A stretch of 64,000 nt of DNA from Bifidobacterium breve (GTDB taxonomy: Bacteria > Actinomycetota > Actinomycetes > Nanopelagicales > Nanopelagicaceae): contig CAMCVO010000006.1 in NCBI GenBank assembly GCA_945881945.1, positions 1-64,000 of the forward strand, written 5' to 3'. A model generated the notes under the pieces. The model was not told where the DNA came from and searched no databases. It saw only the letters and a list, made by a program, of their open reading frames with translations. The translations under genes and the position numbers were made by a program. Below are positions 2,390 to 13,683 of the stretch, in pieces (position 1 is the stretch's first letter; each line of letters starts with the position of its first letter).

Positions 2390-3150
2390 TTAACTGGCTG
2401 TAATTTAAAGGTTGCACTTATCTGGTTATCGACCTTAATAACCTCAGCTGTTGCAACTCTGCGAAGAAATGAATCTACTAAATCAAAGGCACGTTTATCT
2501 GAGGCAAGCTGCTCACGCTTTGTTTGCGCCCGTAGAGTTTGAATATCAACCCCAATGCTCTTTAGATAATCCTCATCACGCTTTACGGTAAGCCAGGAAT
2601 CTAATACCGCCAGATCAATCTCAGGATGAAATTGCACCGCCAAGGTTCTGCCCATTACAAATGCTTGATTAGCCTTTGCAGTGGTGGCAATTGGGGTAGC
2701 ACCCTTTGGGTTTTGCCAGCTATCAAAGTGGTACTCAAACCAGGGCCCTGATGAAATTAGTGATTTATCCGCTGACTCAATCTCATACCAGCCAATCTCT
2801 GCCTCTTTGGCTGGGGCAACTGAGCCACCTAACGCCCGAGCCATTAATTGACCACCAAAGCAGATGCCAAAGATTGGCACACCAGCATTGTGGGCATCTT
2901 GGAGTTTTTCTAACTCAGGCAGTAACCAATTACCAATTCGCTCATCCTCATGTACACCCCAGGGTGCACCCATGGCAATTACAACATCATATTGATTAAG
3001 GATCGGAAAGTTGGCAGGTACATTTGGTTGGTAGTAATCACTCTCTGGTACTACTTGAAATCTCTCAATCTGATAACCATGCTTTTCAAAGGCACGCCAG
3101 ATTGGACCACCAATAGAGACATGGTCATGTTCGATGAAAAGGGCGCGCAT
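2386..3150 (-). CDS. class I glutamine amidotransferase-like protein
   Basis: A 254-residue protein with the class I (triad) glutaminase fold: nucleophile Cys97 in GICFGGQ, and His175/Glu177 in QFHPE. Such stand-alone proteins are often annotated as GMP synthase-like amidotransferases; the acceptor reaction is unknown. A TANNNT hexamer (TAAGGT, minus strand, 3163-3158) ends seven bases before the ATG, suggesting a leaderless message. It is the first gene of a two-gene unit with the DMT permease at 1556; a link between amino-group transfer and export of a small metabolite is only a guess. Confidence 0.82.
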   Translation of the reverse strand: MRALFIEHDHVSIGGPIWRAFEKHGYQIERFQVVPESDYYQPNVPANFPILNQYDVVIAMGAPWGVHEDERIGNWLLPELEKLQDAHNAGVPIFGICFGGQLMARALGGSVAPAKEAEIGWYEIESADKSLISSGPWFEYHFDSWQNPKGATPIATTAKANQAFVMGRTLAVQFHPEIDLAVLDSWLTVKRDEDYLKSIGVDIQTLRAQTKREQLASDKRAFDLVDSFLRRVATAEVIKVDNQISATFKLQPVK

Positions 3151-3199
3151 CTACCTAACCTTACGCTATAAAAATCTAGGAAACTTATTTGTCGGGCTG

Positions 3200-3862
3200 C
3201 TATAGCGAGCGAAGAACTGCAGTGACCTTACCTAGAATTACCGCATCATCTGCTGGAATTGGTGTGAAATCATCATTTGCTGGCAAGAGCCAAAAGTGGC
3301 CATCTTTTTTCGACCAGGTTTTAACAGTTGCCTCACCATCAATCATCGCAGCGACAATCTCACCCTTTTCCGCACTCTTTTGGGATCGGATCACCACATA
3401 ATCACCATCACAGATTGCCAGATCAATCATGGAATCACCTTTGATCTGAAGTAAAAATAGATCACCCTTACCAACTAAAGATTCTGGAAGAGGTAGTACC
3501 TCTTCAACTATCTGCTCTGCCAAAATTGGATTTCCAGCTGCGATCTTGCCAACCAATGGAATAAGACGGGTCTTATCTTGTGGGGCGGCTTGGCCATCCT
3601 CACCAGGGAGGGTGATCTCAATAGCTCTTCCACGGGCGGCATCCCTTCGGATCCAACCCTTCTCTTCAAGAATTTGCAGTTGATAGGTGACGGATGCGGT
3701 GGAGGCAAGACCTGCGGCCTTACCGATCTCTCGCATAGAGGGTGGATACCCCTGGTTCTCAACTGCACGCTTAATAACTGACAAAATCTTTAACTGCCGT
3801 GGGGTTAGCCCATTGTCATCGGCTGGACCATCGGGAAGCTCAGTAACACTCTTTTTAGCCAT
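3200..3862 (-). CDS. lexA: LexA repressor, SOS regulator
   Basis: Represses DNA-damage genes and inactivates itself by RecA-stimulated autocleavage. The N-terminal winged helix spans about residues 20-82 ([12 protein letters not shown] through EEKGWIRRD). The cleavage site is Ala109-Gly110, the catalytic serine Ser144 (GDSM) and lysine Lys181 (EATVKTW). At 220 aa it is normal length. The frame is open 13 codons further upstream, but ATG 3862 is preferred: it begins the conserved MAKKS segment and a -10 hexamer TACCCT lies six bases upstream. It is divergent from the LysM gene at 4005, and an SOS box covers its own -35 region, so it is autoregulated. Confidence 0.97.
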
Positions 3863-3868
3863 AGATAA

Positions 3869-3897
3869 AGGGTATAGGAAGATCTGGAAAAAATCAA
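3869..3897 (-). promoter_or_regulatory. lexA promoter, leaderless
   Basis: On the minus strand a -35-like TTGATT (3897-3892), a 17-base spacer and a -10 TACCCT (3874-3869) are followed by six bases and then the lexA ATG. Transcription would start at or next to the start codon. The SOS box at 3894-3909 overlaps the -35. Confidence 0.6.
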
Positions 3898-3909
3898 ACA
3901 TTTGTTCGA
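3894..3909. promoter_or_regulatory. SOS box (LexA operator), lexA side
   Basis: TCAAAC-ATTT-GTTCGA matches the actinobacterial LexA operator TCGAAC-N4-GTTCGA with one mismatch. It lies over the -35 of lexA. Confidence 0.85.
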
Positions 3910-3951
3910 TTTAAAGTAGACATTGTCAGTGGGGTAGTGTTTAATACTCTA

Positions 3952-3967
3952 TAGAACAGGTGTTCGA
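3952..3967. promoter_or_regulatory. SOS box (LexA operator), LysM-gene side
   Basis: TAGAAC-AGGT-GTTCGA matches TCGAAC-N4-GTTCGA with one mismatch, 58 bases from the first box and 37 bases before the LysM gene start. A candidate -10 (TATAGA, 3950-3955) overlaps it, so LexA would block this promoter. Confidence 0.82.
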
Positions 3968-4004
3968 ATCCCCTCGAACTCTAGTTATCATGGAGAAAAC
4001 GAAG

Positions 4005-4304
4005 ATGAAGGCAAGACAGGCAAAGCGGTTAGCAAGAACAGTTTCAACCATATCCCTATTAGTAGTAATTGGCGCTGGTTTTAGCTCCATCTCATCAGCT
4101 AGTGATAGCACTGGTAATTTAAGTGATGGCAAGAGTAAGTATGTGCAGGTGGTAGTAACTCCAGGTGAGAGTCTTTGGTCGATCGCAGCCCTGGTGGCAG
4201 GTGAAGGTGATATCGCCTCAGTGGTCGCCGATATCGTTGAGGTCAATCAGCTTAAAGGCGCTGATGTGGCTGCCGGCAGTAAGTTGCTAGTTCCAGTTTT
4301 ATAA
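4005..4304 (+). CDS. SOS-controlled LysM protein, probable cell-division inhibitor
   Basis: A 99-residue exported or membrane-anchored protein. A basic N-terminus and hydrophobic segment (about residues 11-30, STISLLVVIGAG) are followed by a short linker and one LysM peptidoglycan-binding domain (about 45-99, from VQVVVTPGESLWSIA to KLLVPVL). ATG 4005 is chosen because GGAG lies nine bases upstream; in-frame starts at 3960 and 3990 fall in or near the SOS box. LysM or similar small membrane proteins divergent from lexA are SOS division inhibitors elsewhere: YneA in Bacillus, Rv2719c in Mycobacterium, DivS in Corynebacterium. The order lexA / this gene / nrdR matches Mycobacterium. Function is therefore inferred from domain, operator and synteny. 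Confidence 0.85.
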   Translation: MKARQAKRLARTVSTISLLVVIGAGFSSISSASDSTGNLSDGKSKYVQVVVTPGESLWSIAALVAGEGDIASVVADIVEVNQLKGADVAAGSKLLVPVL

Positions 4305-4398
4305 GCCCACCTTGGCTAAAAGGGGTGCGGAGTTAGAAAAGATTTCGCTAAACACGCCGACTCAGGTGCTGTTAAACCCTAAAGAGCGGGTCTATGGT

Positions 4399-4499
4399 TC
4401 ACCCAACATATAGGGGTGATTACGCTTATGGCTTCCATAAGTAGTGGTTTTCCACTATTGTTACCTCCCCCCGCTTAGCTAGGAAAGTAAGGAGTAAGC
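4399..4499 (+). promoter_or_regulatory. structured leader upstream of nrdR
   Basis: Three consecutive hairpins: TCACCC/GGGTGA (4399-4419), CTTATGG/CCATAAG with a 3-base loop (4425-4441) and TAGTGG/CCACTA with a TTTT loop (4442-4457). GCTTA/TAAGC (4473-4477 with 4495-4499) could enclose the Shine-Dalgarno GGAG (4491-4494), and CTCC at 4465-4468 could pair with it. No known riboswitch consensus was recognised. Confidence 0.4.
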
Positions 4500-4504
4500 C
4501 CCTC

Positions 4505-4996
4505 GTGATCTGTCCATTCTGCCGCTTTGAAGACTCCAGAGTGATTGATTCACGTCCAACGGATGAGGGAAACCAGATCCGTAGAAGGCGCGAGTGCACA
4601 AGCTGTGGCAAACGGTTTAACACCGCAGAGAGCTCCATTCTTCTAATCATCAAACGATCAGGTGCCACTGAGCCCTTCTCTAGAGAGAAGGTCATCAATG
4701 GTGTGCGCAAGGCATGCCAGGGCAGACCAGTTGATGATGATGATTTAGCACTACTAGCCCAACGAGTTGAGGAGTCCCTTCGCTCAGATGGTGTGGCAGA
4801 GGTTGAGGCCCAAGAGGTTGGAATGGCAGTTCTTGCGCCACTCCGAGAACTCGATGAGGTCGCCTACCTACGATATGCCTCGGTATACCGTAGTTTTTCC
4901 TCCCTAGAAGATTTTGAAGGTGAGATCGCACTACTTCGTGCAGAGCCTTCCAGAAATTCAAAAGCATTAAAGCTGCCCTCCCCGGCAAGAGGTTAA
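4505..4996 (+). CDS. nrdR: transcriptional repressor NrdR of ribonucleotide reductase genes
   Basis: Senses ATP/dATP and represses ribonucleotide reductase genes. It has the N-terminal zinc ribbon (Cys3, Cys6, Cys31, Cys34) followed by an ATP-cone domain (about residues 46-136, starting [17 protein letters not shown]). At 163 aa it has the usual length. It starts with GTG, ten bases after GGAG. It lies 118 bases before nrdJ on the same strand and directly after the SOS-controlled LysM gene. I could not find a convincing NrdR box before nrdJ or nrdR. Confidence 0.96.
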
Positions 4997-5010
4997 TTAC
5001 CTGTCCCGTT

Positions 5011-5055
5011 AAGTAGATAAGAAGTAGAGATAAGTAGTTTAGAAAAGTTAAGTAG
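5011..5055 (+). repeat. phased AAGTAG direct repeats in the nrdR-nrdJ gap
   Basis: AAGTAG occurs at 5011, 5022, 5032 and 5050, i.e. spaced 11, 10 and 18 bases, in an almost pyrimidine-free leader. The first three are about one helical turn apart. Confidence 0.5.
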
Positions 5056-5114
5056 AAAAAAGTTTTAAAAGAAGAGAAAAAGAATTTAAACAAACTAGTT
5101 AAGGGGATAAGTAA

Positions 5115-7922
5115 ATGTCTATAGTGAATAAGCCAGCCGCGGTTAAGACCGGAACTGGAAAAGGTCTTACCATCGAACGTATCTACACCACCGCTGGAGT
5201 TCACCCGTATGACACCGTTAAGTGGGAAAGGCGTGATGTTGTTCAGACCAACTGGAAATCTGGTGAGGTTATCTTTGAACAAAAAGGTGTTGAGTACCCA
5301 GAGTTTTGGTCGGTAAATGCCTCAACCATTGTTACCACCAAATACTTTAGAGGAGCTGTGGGAGCAGAAAATCGTGAGTGGTCGCTAAAGCAGGTAATTG
5401 ATCGCGTAGTTTTGACCTACACAAAAGCTGGAAAAGAGAATGGCTACTTTGCCACCCCAACCGATGCTGAAATTTTTGAACATGAATTAACCCATATGTT
5501 GATGCACCAAATATTTTCATACAACTCACCAGTTTGGTTTAACGTGGGAACAAATGCCCCACAACAGGTCTCTGCCTGCTTCATCCTCTCAGTAGATGAC
5601 ACAATGGAGTCAATTCTTAATTGGTATAAAGAAGAGGGCTTTATCTTCAAAGGTGGCTCAGGTGCGGGTCTTAATCTTTCAAGAATTCGCTCATCAAAGG
5701 AGCTTTTAAAATCAGGTGGCACAGCATCTGGTCCAGTTTCATTTATGAGAGGCGCCGACTCATCTGCTGGCACAATCAAATCAGGGGGAGCAACACGACG
5801 AGCAGCCAAGATGGTTGTTTTAGATGTTGATCATCCAGATATTGAAGAGTTTATTGAGACCAAGGTTCGCGAAGAGGACAAGATTCGCGCCCTGCGCGAT
5901 GCTGGCTTTGATATGGATTTGGGCGGCAAAGATATTGTCTCAGTTCAATATCAAAATGCTAATAACTCAGTAAGAGTCTCCGATGCCTTTATGCGCGCCT
6001 ATGAGAATGGTGAATCATTTGGATTAACCGCTCGCTCAACTGGTGAGGTTGTGGAGAGTGTTGATGCTAAACAATTATTTAGAAAGATGGCAGAGGCAGC
6101 TTGGGCATGTGCTGATCCTGGTATTCAATATGACGACACCATCAATGAGTGGCACACAAACCCAGAGACTGGCCGGATCAATGCATCCAATCCATGCTCT
6201 GAGTACATGTCACTAGATAACTCATCATGTAACTTGGCATCTTTGAACTTAATGAAGTTCTTAAAAGCTGATGGTTCATTTGATGTTAAAAACTTTGTCA
6301 AGGTAACTGAGTTGGTAATTACCTCAATGGATATCTCAATCTGCTTTGCAGATTTCCCAACCGCACCAATTGGTGAGACCACTAGAAATTTCCGTCAATT
6401 AGGAATTGGTTATGCAAATCTTGGTGCCCTCCTTATGGCATCAGGTCTTGCATATGACTCAGATGGCGGACGTGCCCTTGCTGGTGCGATCACATCATTA
6501 CTTACTGGTGTCTCATACCGACGAAGCGCAGAGCTTGCCGGCATTGTTGGTGCATACAATGGTTATGCCAGAAATGCTGCCCCGCACACCAAGGTAATGC
6601 GCAAACACCAAAATGCAACTGAGTCTGCAAAATCAGTCTCAACTTTGGATAAAGATGTTTGGACAGAGGCGATTAAGCAATGGTCTACTGGAAATACATT
6701 GGGTGAGAAAAATGGCTGGCGCAATGCGCAAGCATCAGTTTTAGCTCCAACTGGCACCATCGGATTAATGATGGATTGCGACACAACAGGTATTGAGCCA
6801 GATCTAGCTCTTGTTAAGTTTAAGAAGATGGTGGGCGGTGGTTCAATGCAGATTGTTAACCAAACTGTGCCACTTGCTCTTAAAAAACTTGGCTACACCG
6901 ATGAGACAATTGAAGCAATTGTTGAGTACATCGCAGAGAATGGAAACATAATTGATGCCCCAGGATTAAAGAGTGAGCATTACTCAGTCTTTGATTGCGC
7001 CATGGGAATTAGATCAATTAGCGCTATGGGCCATGTTCACATGATGGCAGCCTGCCAACCATTCCTATCTGGTGCGATCTCAAAGACAGTTAACCTGCCA
7101 TCGGATGCCAGTGTGGCTGAGATCGAAGAGGTTTACTACCAAGGTTGGAAGTTAGGTCTTAAAGCACTTGCGGTCTACCGTGATAATTGCAAGGTTGGAC
7201 AACCTCTATCTGATTCAAAGGGTAAAAAGGATGAGGCGGTATCAACTGAGGCTTCACACAGTGCAGTTCGAAGGAGATTACCAAAGACTCGTCCAGCACA
7301 GACCACATCATTTGCAGTAGGTGGCGCTGAAGGTTATATGACCAGCGGAGCTTATGCAGATGGGGCTCTAGCTGAGGTTTTCCTAAAGCTTGGCAAGCAG
7401 GGTTCAACACTTGCCGGTGTAATGGATGCCTTCTCAATTGCAGTATCAATTGGATTGCAATATGGCGTTCCACTAGAGACCTTTGTAGAGAAGTTTGCTA
7501 ATCAAAGATTTGAACCAGCTGGTATGACAGATGATGCTGATATCAGAATGGCGCAATCGGTAATGGATTACATCTTCCGCCGTCTTGCCCTTGATTACCT
7601 ACCATTTGAGTCACGTACTGCACTTGGTATTCACTCAGCGGCAGAGCGCGCTCGCGCCTTAGAAAGTGGTGAGTACACAGCTGATGAAAAACCAGTTGCA
7701 ATCTCAGCTCCAGTAAAAAAAAGTGAGAGCAAAAAACAAGAGGTAAAGATTGAAAAAGCACCAGTTGATAACTCATCCGTTGGATCATCAATGGAGTTGT
7801 TTGAGAAGATGGCTGGGGTTAAATCAGATGCACCACTTTGTATGACATGTGGAGTCAAAATGAGAATGGCCGGCTCCTGCTTTGTCTGCGAAGGTTGCGG
7901 AAACACCTCAGGTTGCTCCTGA
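5115..7922 (+). CDS. nrdJ: adenosylcobalamin-dependent (class II) ribonucleotide reductase
   Basis: Reduces ribonucleotides to deoxyribonucleotides without oxygen dependence, using B12 to make the thiyl radical. At 935 aa it fits the long class II form. Recognisable segments are the first redox cysteine region (VSACFILSVDD), the radical-site loop NPCSEYMSLDN with a second cysteine soon after (SSCNLASLN), a phosphate-binding APTGTIGLMMDCD, and a Cys-rich tail (CMTCG...CFVCEGCG...GCS) that can bind metal or relay electrons. A strong AAGGGG lies before the ATG. NrdR immediately upstream is the expected regulator, and a strong terminator follows. No class I genes are in the window, so this may be the main enzyme; cobalt for its cofactor could enter through the NiCoT permease at 58966. 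Confidence 0.96.
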   Translation: MSIVNKPAAVKTGTGKGLTIERIYTTAGVHPYDTVKWERRDVVQTNWKSGEVIFEQKGVEYPEFWSVNASTIVTTKYFRGAVGAENREWSLKQVIDRVVLTYTKAGKENGYFATPTDAEIFEHELTHMLMHQIFSYNSPVWFNVGTNAPQQVSACFILSVDDTMESILNWYKEEGFIFKGGSGAGLNLSRIRSSKELLKSGGTASGPVSFMRGADSSAGTIKSGGATRRAAKMVVLDVDHPDIEEFIETKVREEDKIRALRDAGFDMDLGGKDIVSVQYQNANNSVRVSDAFMRAYENGESFGLTARSTGEVVESVDAKQLFRKMAEAAWACADPGIQYDDTINEWHTNPETGRINASNPCSEYMSLDNSSCNLASLNLMKFLKADGSFDVKNFVKVTELVITSMDISICFADFPTAPIGETTRNFRQLGIGYANLGALLMASGLAYDSDGGRALAGAITSLLTGVSYRRSAELAGIVGAYNGYARNAAPHTKVMRKHQNATESAKSVSTLDKDVWTEAIKQWSTGNTLGEKNGWRNAQASVLAPTGTIGLMMDCDTTGIEPDLALVKFKKMVGGGSMQIVNQTVPLALKKLGYTDETIEAIVEYIAENGNIIDAPGLKSEHYSVFDCAMGIRSISAMGHVHMMAACQPFLSGAISKTVNLPSDASVAEIEEVYYQGWKLGLKALAVYRDNCKVGQPLSDSKGKKDEAVSTEASHSAVRRRLPKTRPAQTTSFAVGGAEGYMTSGAYADGALAEVFLKLGKQGSTLAGVMDAFSIAVSIGLQYGVPLETFVEKFANQRFEPAGMTDDADIRMAQSVMDYIFRRLALDYLPFESRTALGIHSAAERARALESGEYTADEKPVAISAPVKKSESKKQEVKIEKAPVDNSSVGSSMELFEKMAGVKSDAPLCMTCGVKMRMAGSCFVCEGCGNTSGCS

Positions 7923-13509: not shown

Positions 13510-13620
13510 GGTCACGAGTCTTAGTTCAAAGCCCCGGCTAACTAAGCGGCAACCCTCCACCACGGTGGGGTGCTCCGGGTGAAGACCAGGTCGATAGCAA
13601 GGTGCCATCGGCAAGTGTGG
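13510..13620 (+). ncRNA. SAM-IV riboswitch
   Basis: The segment contains the class signature: GGTCACGAGT, AAAGCCCCGGCTAACT, CGGCAACCCTCC, GGTGGGGTGCTCCGGGTGA and a closing GACC. The CACCACGGTG hairpin lies in the middle. This is the actinobacterial SAM-binding aptamer normally found before sulfur-amino-acid genes, and it precedes metY here. The 3' limit is approximate; the expression platform lies between about 13620 and the AGGAGG at 13673. Confidence 0.88.
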
Positions 13621-13683
13621 GTCGATAAAAATTTAGGGTAAAACTCTAATTATTTTCTCACCCCCTTTAACTAGGAGGTTGCA

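Follow-up and report, generated by a model that had tools for sequence, protein, structure and literature searches.

The window analysed here is a 64,000-nucleotide stretch of DNA from a genome of the Nanopelagicales kind (1.10 Mb, 86% complete). Few freshwater bacteria are as abundant as the Nanopelagicales, whose genomes are near 1.2 Mb. In the window, lexA is divergent from a gene encoding a small LysM protein, which is followed by nrdR and then by nrdJ (Table 1). The LexA protein shares 98% identity with its counterpart in actinobacterium SCGC AAA027-J17, a single-cell genome, and several of the next-closest lexA loci carry the names Nanopelagicaceae, Nanopelagicus or Planktophila. The lexA start is the ATG at 3862, since the MAK start is conserved in 15 aligned loci; a longer open reading frame, reaching 3901, would begin inside LexA box 1. 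No paper on the lexA/LysM locus in Nanopelagicales was found within the literature searched.

Table 1. Features of the lexA-LysM-nrdR-nrdJ region (positions in the window).
Feature	Position	Strand	Sequence or evidence
lexA	3200..3862	-	TIGR00498 lexA 225.7 bits (cut-off 110.95); Pfam LexA_DNA_bind and Peptidase_S24
LexA box 1	3894..3909		TCAAACATTTGTTCGA, one mismatch; 32-47 nt upstream of lexA start
-35-like hexamer TAGACA of the putative LysM promoter	3917..3922	+	17 nt from -10; TAGACA/TGGACA in 14/14 leaders of genus
PafBC / RecA-NDp core	3924..3931	+	TGTCAGTG; published consensus; conserved in order
-10 TTTAAT of the putative LysM promoter	3940..3945	+	TAnnnT in most other genera; predicted start ~3952
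LexA box 2	3952..3967		TAGAACAGGTGTTCGA, one mismatch; over the predicted LysM transcription start
mRNA leader hairpin GUUCGA-AUCCCC-UCGAAC	3962..3979	+	5' arm = 3' half of LexA box 2; covariation, folding, covariance-model hits
LysM protein gene, 99 aa	4005..4304	+	Pfam LysM 29.0 bits (cut-off 20.9); AlphaFold2 model; Foldseek
NrdR-box-like element 1, nrdR leader	4401..4416	+	conserved in 7 aligned leaders
NrdR-box-like element 2	4432..4447	+	31 bp from element 1, weaker match; aligned leaders
nrdR	4505..4996	+	TIGR00244 152.8 bits (cut-off 124.65)
nrdJ, vitamin B12-dependent ribonucleotide reductase	5115..7922	+	NF005122 1566 bits (cut-off 859)

The gap between the LysM gene and nrdR (4305-4504) contains a strongly conserved block with two NrdR-box-like elements, and upstream of them a further conserved stretch, AACACGCCGAYT..AGGT. 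The nrdR-nrdJ pair is likely to be transcribed from its own, NrdR-controlled promoter. No riboswitch in the nrdR leader was matched by Rfam in a search of 3860-5130. Elsewhere in the window there is a SAM-IV riboswitch (13510-13623, 106.8 bits) and, near its start, an open reading frame of 473 aa (52-1473) that is presumably a C5 cytosine methyltransferase, judging by its motif.

The two LexA operators had been placed by the preliminary description, with one mismatch each to TCGAAC-N4-GTTCGA, and both positions and mismatches were borne out. At a tolerance of up to two mismatches they would not be remarkable: two sites occur in the window against 1.03 expected (30 of 100 shuffles reach two), and the 29 sites genome-wide, against 68 for a reversed control pattern, are no excess. 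With at most one mismatch, however, two sites compare with 0.044 expected in the window and five with 0.76 expected in the genome, where three exact boxes (0.014 expected) precede a dnaE2-type operon, recA and a TPR gene. The last of these boxes lies just before the gene for a 342-aa TPR protein (contig C10:45575-45590, same genome). Both boxes of the lexA/LysM region recur at a spacing of 58-59 bp in all 14 close named relatives (loci with LexA identity of at least 71%). At least two boxes are found in 109/109 leaders from 14 genera of the order, which are not a random sample because they combine the 30 best LysM hits, 20 genomes covering genera and 59 usable regions of 60 chosen by hand (one, a 16-base contig end, was dropped). 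This conservation in relatives and leaders is the reason for regarding the boxes as real.

The pairing of the genes is equally stable. In 49 of 50 loci lexA is divergent from a LysM gene, the fiftieth being a contig end, and the pair is found in 17 of the 21 more distant lexA loci examined, so that the synteny extends across phyla. A LysM gene was detected in 192 of the 251 genomes of the order and in 96 of the 108 good ones; the 59 genomes without a hit include many incomplete ones, and also 12 of the good ones. The proposal that a LysM gene of the YneA/ChiZ type beside lexA is under SOS control is thus well supported by comparative evidence, namely conserved boxes and synteny, and from its conserved operator the promoter of the LysM gene may be classed as LexA (SOS) type.

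The LysM protein

The start at 4005 is right and corresponds to the conserved ATG, which gives a protein of 99 aa. The view that this is a minimal version did not hold: where other Actinobacteria, Acidimicrobiia and Clostridia encode a LysM protein beside lexA, it mostly has 92-126 aa, and in this order such proteins have 96-150 aa. YneA of Bacillus subtilis has about 100 aa; ChiZ (Rv2719c) of Mycobacterium tuberculosis is larger, at about 165 aa. Since the lexA-LysM pair (17/21 distant loci) and the LysM gene (192/251 genomes) are common, the checkpoint would be of a known kind, and its size is nothing unusual.

Among NCBIfam models YneA itself (NF010723) matches best, at 47.2 bits and under the cut-off of 60; eight of ten other lexA-neighbour LysM proteins also remain under this cut-off. 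The AlphaFold2 model contains a helix at residues 6-24 (low confidence) and a LysM fold from about 45 to 98 (confidence about 92), and Foldseek matched LysM structures (best 4uz2, E 7.9e-3). In YneA, the transmembrane helix is described as docking on FtsW, with peptidoglycan binding by LysM also needed, so that septal wall synthesis is blocked; AlphaFold 3 models by the same authors suggest the same mechanism for ChiZ (PMC13396833). A point against the analogy is that D46 and T47 of YneA, which peptidoglycan binding requires, correspond by eye to E and S in the LysM protein (GES for GDT). Candidate targets are present: two SEDS proteins (FtsW/RodA family) are encoded in four of four genomes of the genus.

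The single N-terminal hydrophobic stretch, previously described as a membrane anchor, is indeed the only one, but it is compatible with either an anchor or a cleavable signal, because it is short and weak (best 19-residue hydropathy 1.69) and the small residues that follow it are suited to signal cleavage. The protein may thus be secreted, and the cleaved form would have no transmembrane helix with which to dock on FtsW. This feature fits an alternative in which damage induces the LysM protein to bind or remodel the wall, after its signal is cleaved and it is secreted, and division goes on. The alternative could also appeal to ChiZ, for which wall hydrolase activity has been described, with a LysM domain that seemed dispensable (PMC3989709). 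We consider this alternative unlikely, given that the Pfam search found the LysM domain alone and no catalytic domain, that the best family match is YneA, and that the synteny with lexA is kept across phyla. By analogy, division arrest is the most likely role of the LysM protein, and we think it probable that the protein inhibits division in the manner of YneA and ChiZ and that DNA damage induces it through two switches.

The promoter of the LysM gene

The putative second switch was missed by the preliminary description. Between the LexA boxes, and pointing at the LysM gene, lies TGTCAGTG-N8-TTTAAT (3924-3945), the motif of RecA-independent damage promoters controlled by PafBC in mycobacteria. 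The published mycobacterial consensus for these promoters (PafBC / RecA-NDp) is tTGTCRgtg-8 nt-TannnT (PMC5656591), and that given for M. tuberculosis is TGTCGG or TGTCAG-N10-TA-N3-T (PMC8151990). Core and spacing of the LysM promoter are exact, whereas its -10, TTTAAT, departs from the consensus at position 2; a perfect TAnnnT is present in 20 of 50 loci. PafB is reported to bind a -26 motif, and PafBC to adapt the housekeeping sigma factor for promoters of this type (PMC11804915).

If transcription starts at about 3952, as predicted, the first base of the PafBC motif would be at about -28 and box 2 would cover about +1 to +16. This geometry corrects the earlier placement of box 2 on the -10 of the LysM gene, as the box begins 6 nt past the putative -10 and lies over the predicted start. 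The matching statement that box 1 covers the -35 of lexA is unsupported, no sigma-70-type promoter having been found in 3150-5150.

The core, with the right spacing and followed by T[AT], is present in 105 of the 109 leaders of the order and absent only in genera g5 and g8 (4/109); the R of TGTCRGTG varies between A and G, as in the published consensus. The composite motif of PafBC core and downstream LexA box occurs in 149 of the 251 genomes of the order, against 0 in every row for the reversed-pattern control, and in two settings, before the LysM gene and before dnaE2. In this genome the second setting is a dnaE2-type operon whose first gene encodes a DUF6504 protein (contig C10:18929-18967), and at recA (contig C23:329-424; the contig ends inside the gene) an exact LexA box is combined with a one-mismatch PafBC site, CGTCAGTG-N8-TACCTT, nearer the gene. 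This arrangement matches the two published promoters of mycobacterial recA (PMC5656591). The machinery is also encoded: PafB is found in 21 of 22 genomes tested and, in this genome, pafB (WYL and WCX domains) is directly followed by pafC (HTH_PafC, 96 bits).

These observations bear on the possibility that the LysM gene is under LexA alone and that TGTCRGTGG is a mere part of an ordinary sigma-70-type promoter. Most leaders do have a TTGC- or TTGA-like -35 at 17-18 nt before the -10, the -10 is TTTAAT in this genus, and g5 has TTGACA without a PafBC core. The possibility is nevertheless quite unlikely, because the -35 drifts but the core keeps both its sequence and its spacing, because the core recurs with a LexA box before dnaE2, because the pafBC genes are present, and because the motif has the direction that works in M. 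tuberculosis, where the rv2719c operon is driven by a PafBC motif close to lexA and directed away from it (PMC8151990). With a PafBC-type promoter, LexA need not be the sole route by which damage induces the LysM gene. Dual LexA/PafBC control has been published for Rv2719c of M. tuberculosis (PMC8151990), so the same control of the LysM gene would be a known arrangement, here in a streamlined lineage.

Several wider readings of the motif were rejected. In a scan of the whole genome the RecA-NDp motif occurs at 33 places against 27 for the control, and therefore does not by itself define a regulon; dnaB, ssb and dnaX (gene names assigned by eye) lie behind weak sites of this kind. The motif does not track the presence of PafB either, which was found in four of the five g5 and g8 genomes tested. 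Across the class, 68 of 296 genomes have the composite motif (none in the control), and it is no class-wide hallmark of the LysM gene, since by a motif search none of 30 inspected loci outside the order adjoins one; the neighbours recognisable by eye are presumably DUF6504/dnaE2-type, HEPN-like or HNH-like genes. Six loci of Microbacteriaceae type (L031-L036) have a perfect LexA box before a small LysM gene beside lexA, and three of them (L033-L035) also a TGTCGGTG core with a TA-type -10 before that gene. Genus g13 combines TTGACA with the PafBC core; in g5 the core is lost and TTGACA is found, as if dependence on PafBC had been shed (loci L223, L230-L232, L233 and L235 for the two genera).

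The leader hairpin

Directly after box 2, or overlapping it, the mRNA leader contains a hairpin with an almost fixed UCCCC loop, which had also escaped the first reading. Of the 109 leaders, 89 have a TCCCC motif within reach, with a stem of at least four uninterrupted pairs in 78 of these and of at least five in 55. The stems differ between genera: TTCGA/TCGAA here, AGAGT/ACTCT in g7, ACACT/GGTGT in g10, ACCGA/TCGGT in g6 and AAACC/GGTTT in g2. In g13 the loop is altered and the stem has 8 pairs, and the hairpin is absent in most of g3 and in all sampled g5, g8, g14 and g15.

Among 22 distinct hairpins, 89.4% of cells are paired, compared with 51.5% (sd 3.9) when shuffled, a level of pairing reached in 0 of 500 shuffles, and all six pairs of the stem show changes on both sides, although these counts are not independent events because the sequences are related. 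Sliding the partner lowers pairing to about 40% or less. A covariance model placed its best site in the LysM leader in nine of nine genomes; as only this leader stands out in each, the hairpin was rejected as a regulon-wide element. When the leader of the window is folded by itself, support is only modest (z -2.35 over 39 nt, -0.23 over 59 nt). Rfam has no match at gathering score in the window leader or in the loci of 12 relatives, and no relevant match at E up to 5 in 3860-5130.

The runner-up of the model in this genus is the T-arm of tRNA-Glu; the 3' end of tRNA-Glu(CTC) (L334, L336-L338) and the LysM leader of this genus share 15 identical bases, GTTCGAATCCCCTCG. That the hairpin merely results from the LexA palindrome or from a tRNA-like sequence, with no functional RNA element, is very unlikely: in this genus its 5' arm is a LexA half-site and the T-arm with its identical bases ranks second, but in g2, g6, g7, g10 and g11 it lies beyond the LexA box, where unrelated stems are still paired around the same loop.

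As a functional element, the hairpin does not appear to mask its own ribosome site. Pairing of the loop with the Shine-Dalgarno region was rejected (mean longest run 3.38 against 3.71 in shuffled sequence, 81 leaders), and self-masking is disfavoured because the loop pairs with the downstream message no better than shuffled sequence. What remains is that the hairpin may act through a partner in trans or in stability. In several relatives (L315, L316, L313, L147, L154) the LysM start codon is immediately preceded by a second UUCCCC, besides the hairpin loop or replacing it. We tentatively suggest, at somewhat less than even likelihood, that the UCCCC hairpin represents a new class of cis-regulatory RNA, a third and post-transcriptional lock on the division inhibitor. 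Its reader would be either a G-rich sRNA acting in trans or an RNA-binding protein. In this genus it would share bases with the LexA operator, so that a single stretch of DNA would serve as a repressor site at first and as an RNA switch later.

Relation to known checkpoints and proposed mechanism

The LysM gene shares with yneA of B. subtilis its position beside lexA, probable SOS control, and a product with one LysM domain and an N-terminal helix (transmembrane in YneA and possibly so here), although the protein falls under the YneA family cut-off and, to our knowledge, there is no PafBC system in Bacillus. In regulation there is a likeness to Rv2719c/ChiZ, whose LysM gene is also divergent from lexA, with SOS boxes and a PafBC motif pointing away from lexA (PMC8151990). 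ChiZ is described as a negative regulator of division and, unlike the LysM-only protein here, is a reported wall hydrolase (PMC3989709); the Nanopelagicales locus shows a constant 58-bp geometry together with the UCCCC hairpin in its leader. DivS of Corynebacterium glutamicum is likewise an SOS-induced division suppressor next to lexA, but the same source describes it as having no significant homology to YneA (PMC3989709). Compared with PafBC / RecA-NDp promoters in general, the LysM promoter has the tTGTCRgtg core with its 8-nt spacing, in a genome that encodes pafB and pafC, and differs by the -10 TTTAAT of this genus and by the LexA box on the predicted start. The locus is thus probably a dual-controlled checkpoint of a known kind whose dual switch has precedent, and the covarying leader hairpin is the part for which no known match was found.

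In undamaged cells, LexA would occupy box 1, repressing lexA, and box 2, over the LysM start site. Upon damage, RecA on single-stranded DNA would induce self-cleavage of LexA and so free the LysM start site. In parallel, PafBC activated by single-stranded DNA would act on the -26 motif TGTCRGTG and recruit the housekeeping polymerase to this promoter with its weak -35. On the leader mRNA, the UCCCC-loop hairpin would probably adjust how stable the message is or how well it is translated, by way of a trans-acting partner. The LysM protein would then be exported by its N-terminal helix, its LysM domain would bind nascent septal peptidoglycan and, by analogy with YneA, the protein would stall FtsW-driven septum synthesis until repair is done.

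A two-input (LexA and PafBC) damage checkpoint on division, kept in fixed geometry across at least 12 genera, would show which damage functions survive genome streamlining. If the leader hairpin works, it would add RNA-level control to the LexA/PafBC circuit, in the form of a small and testable element.
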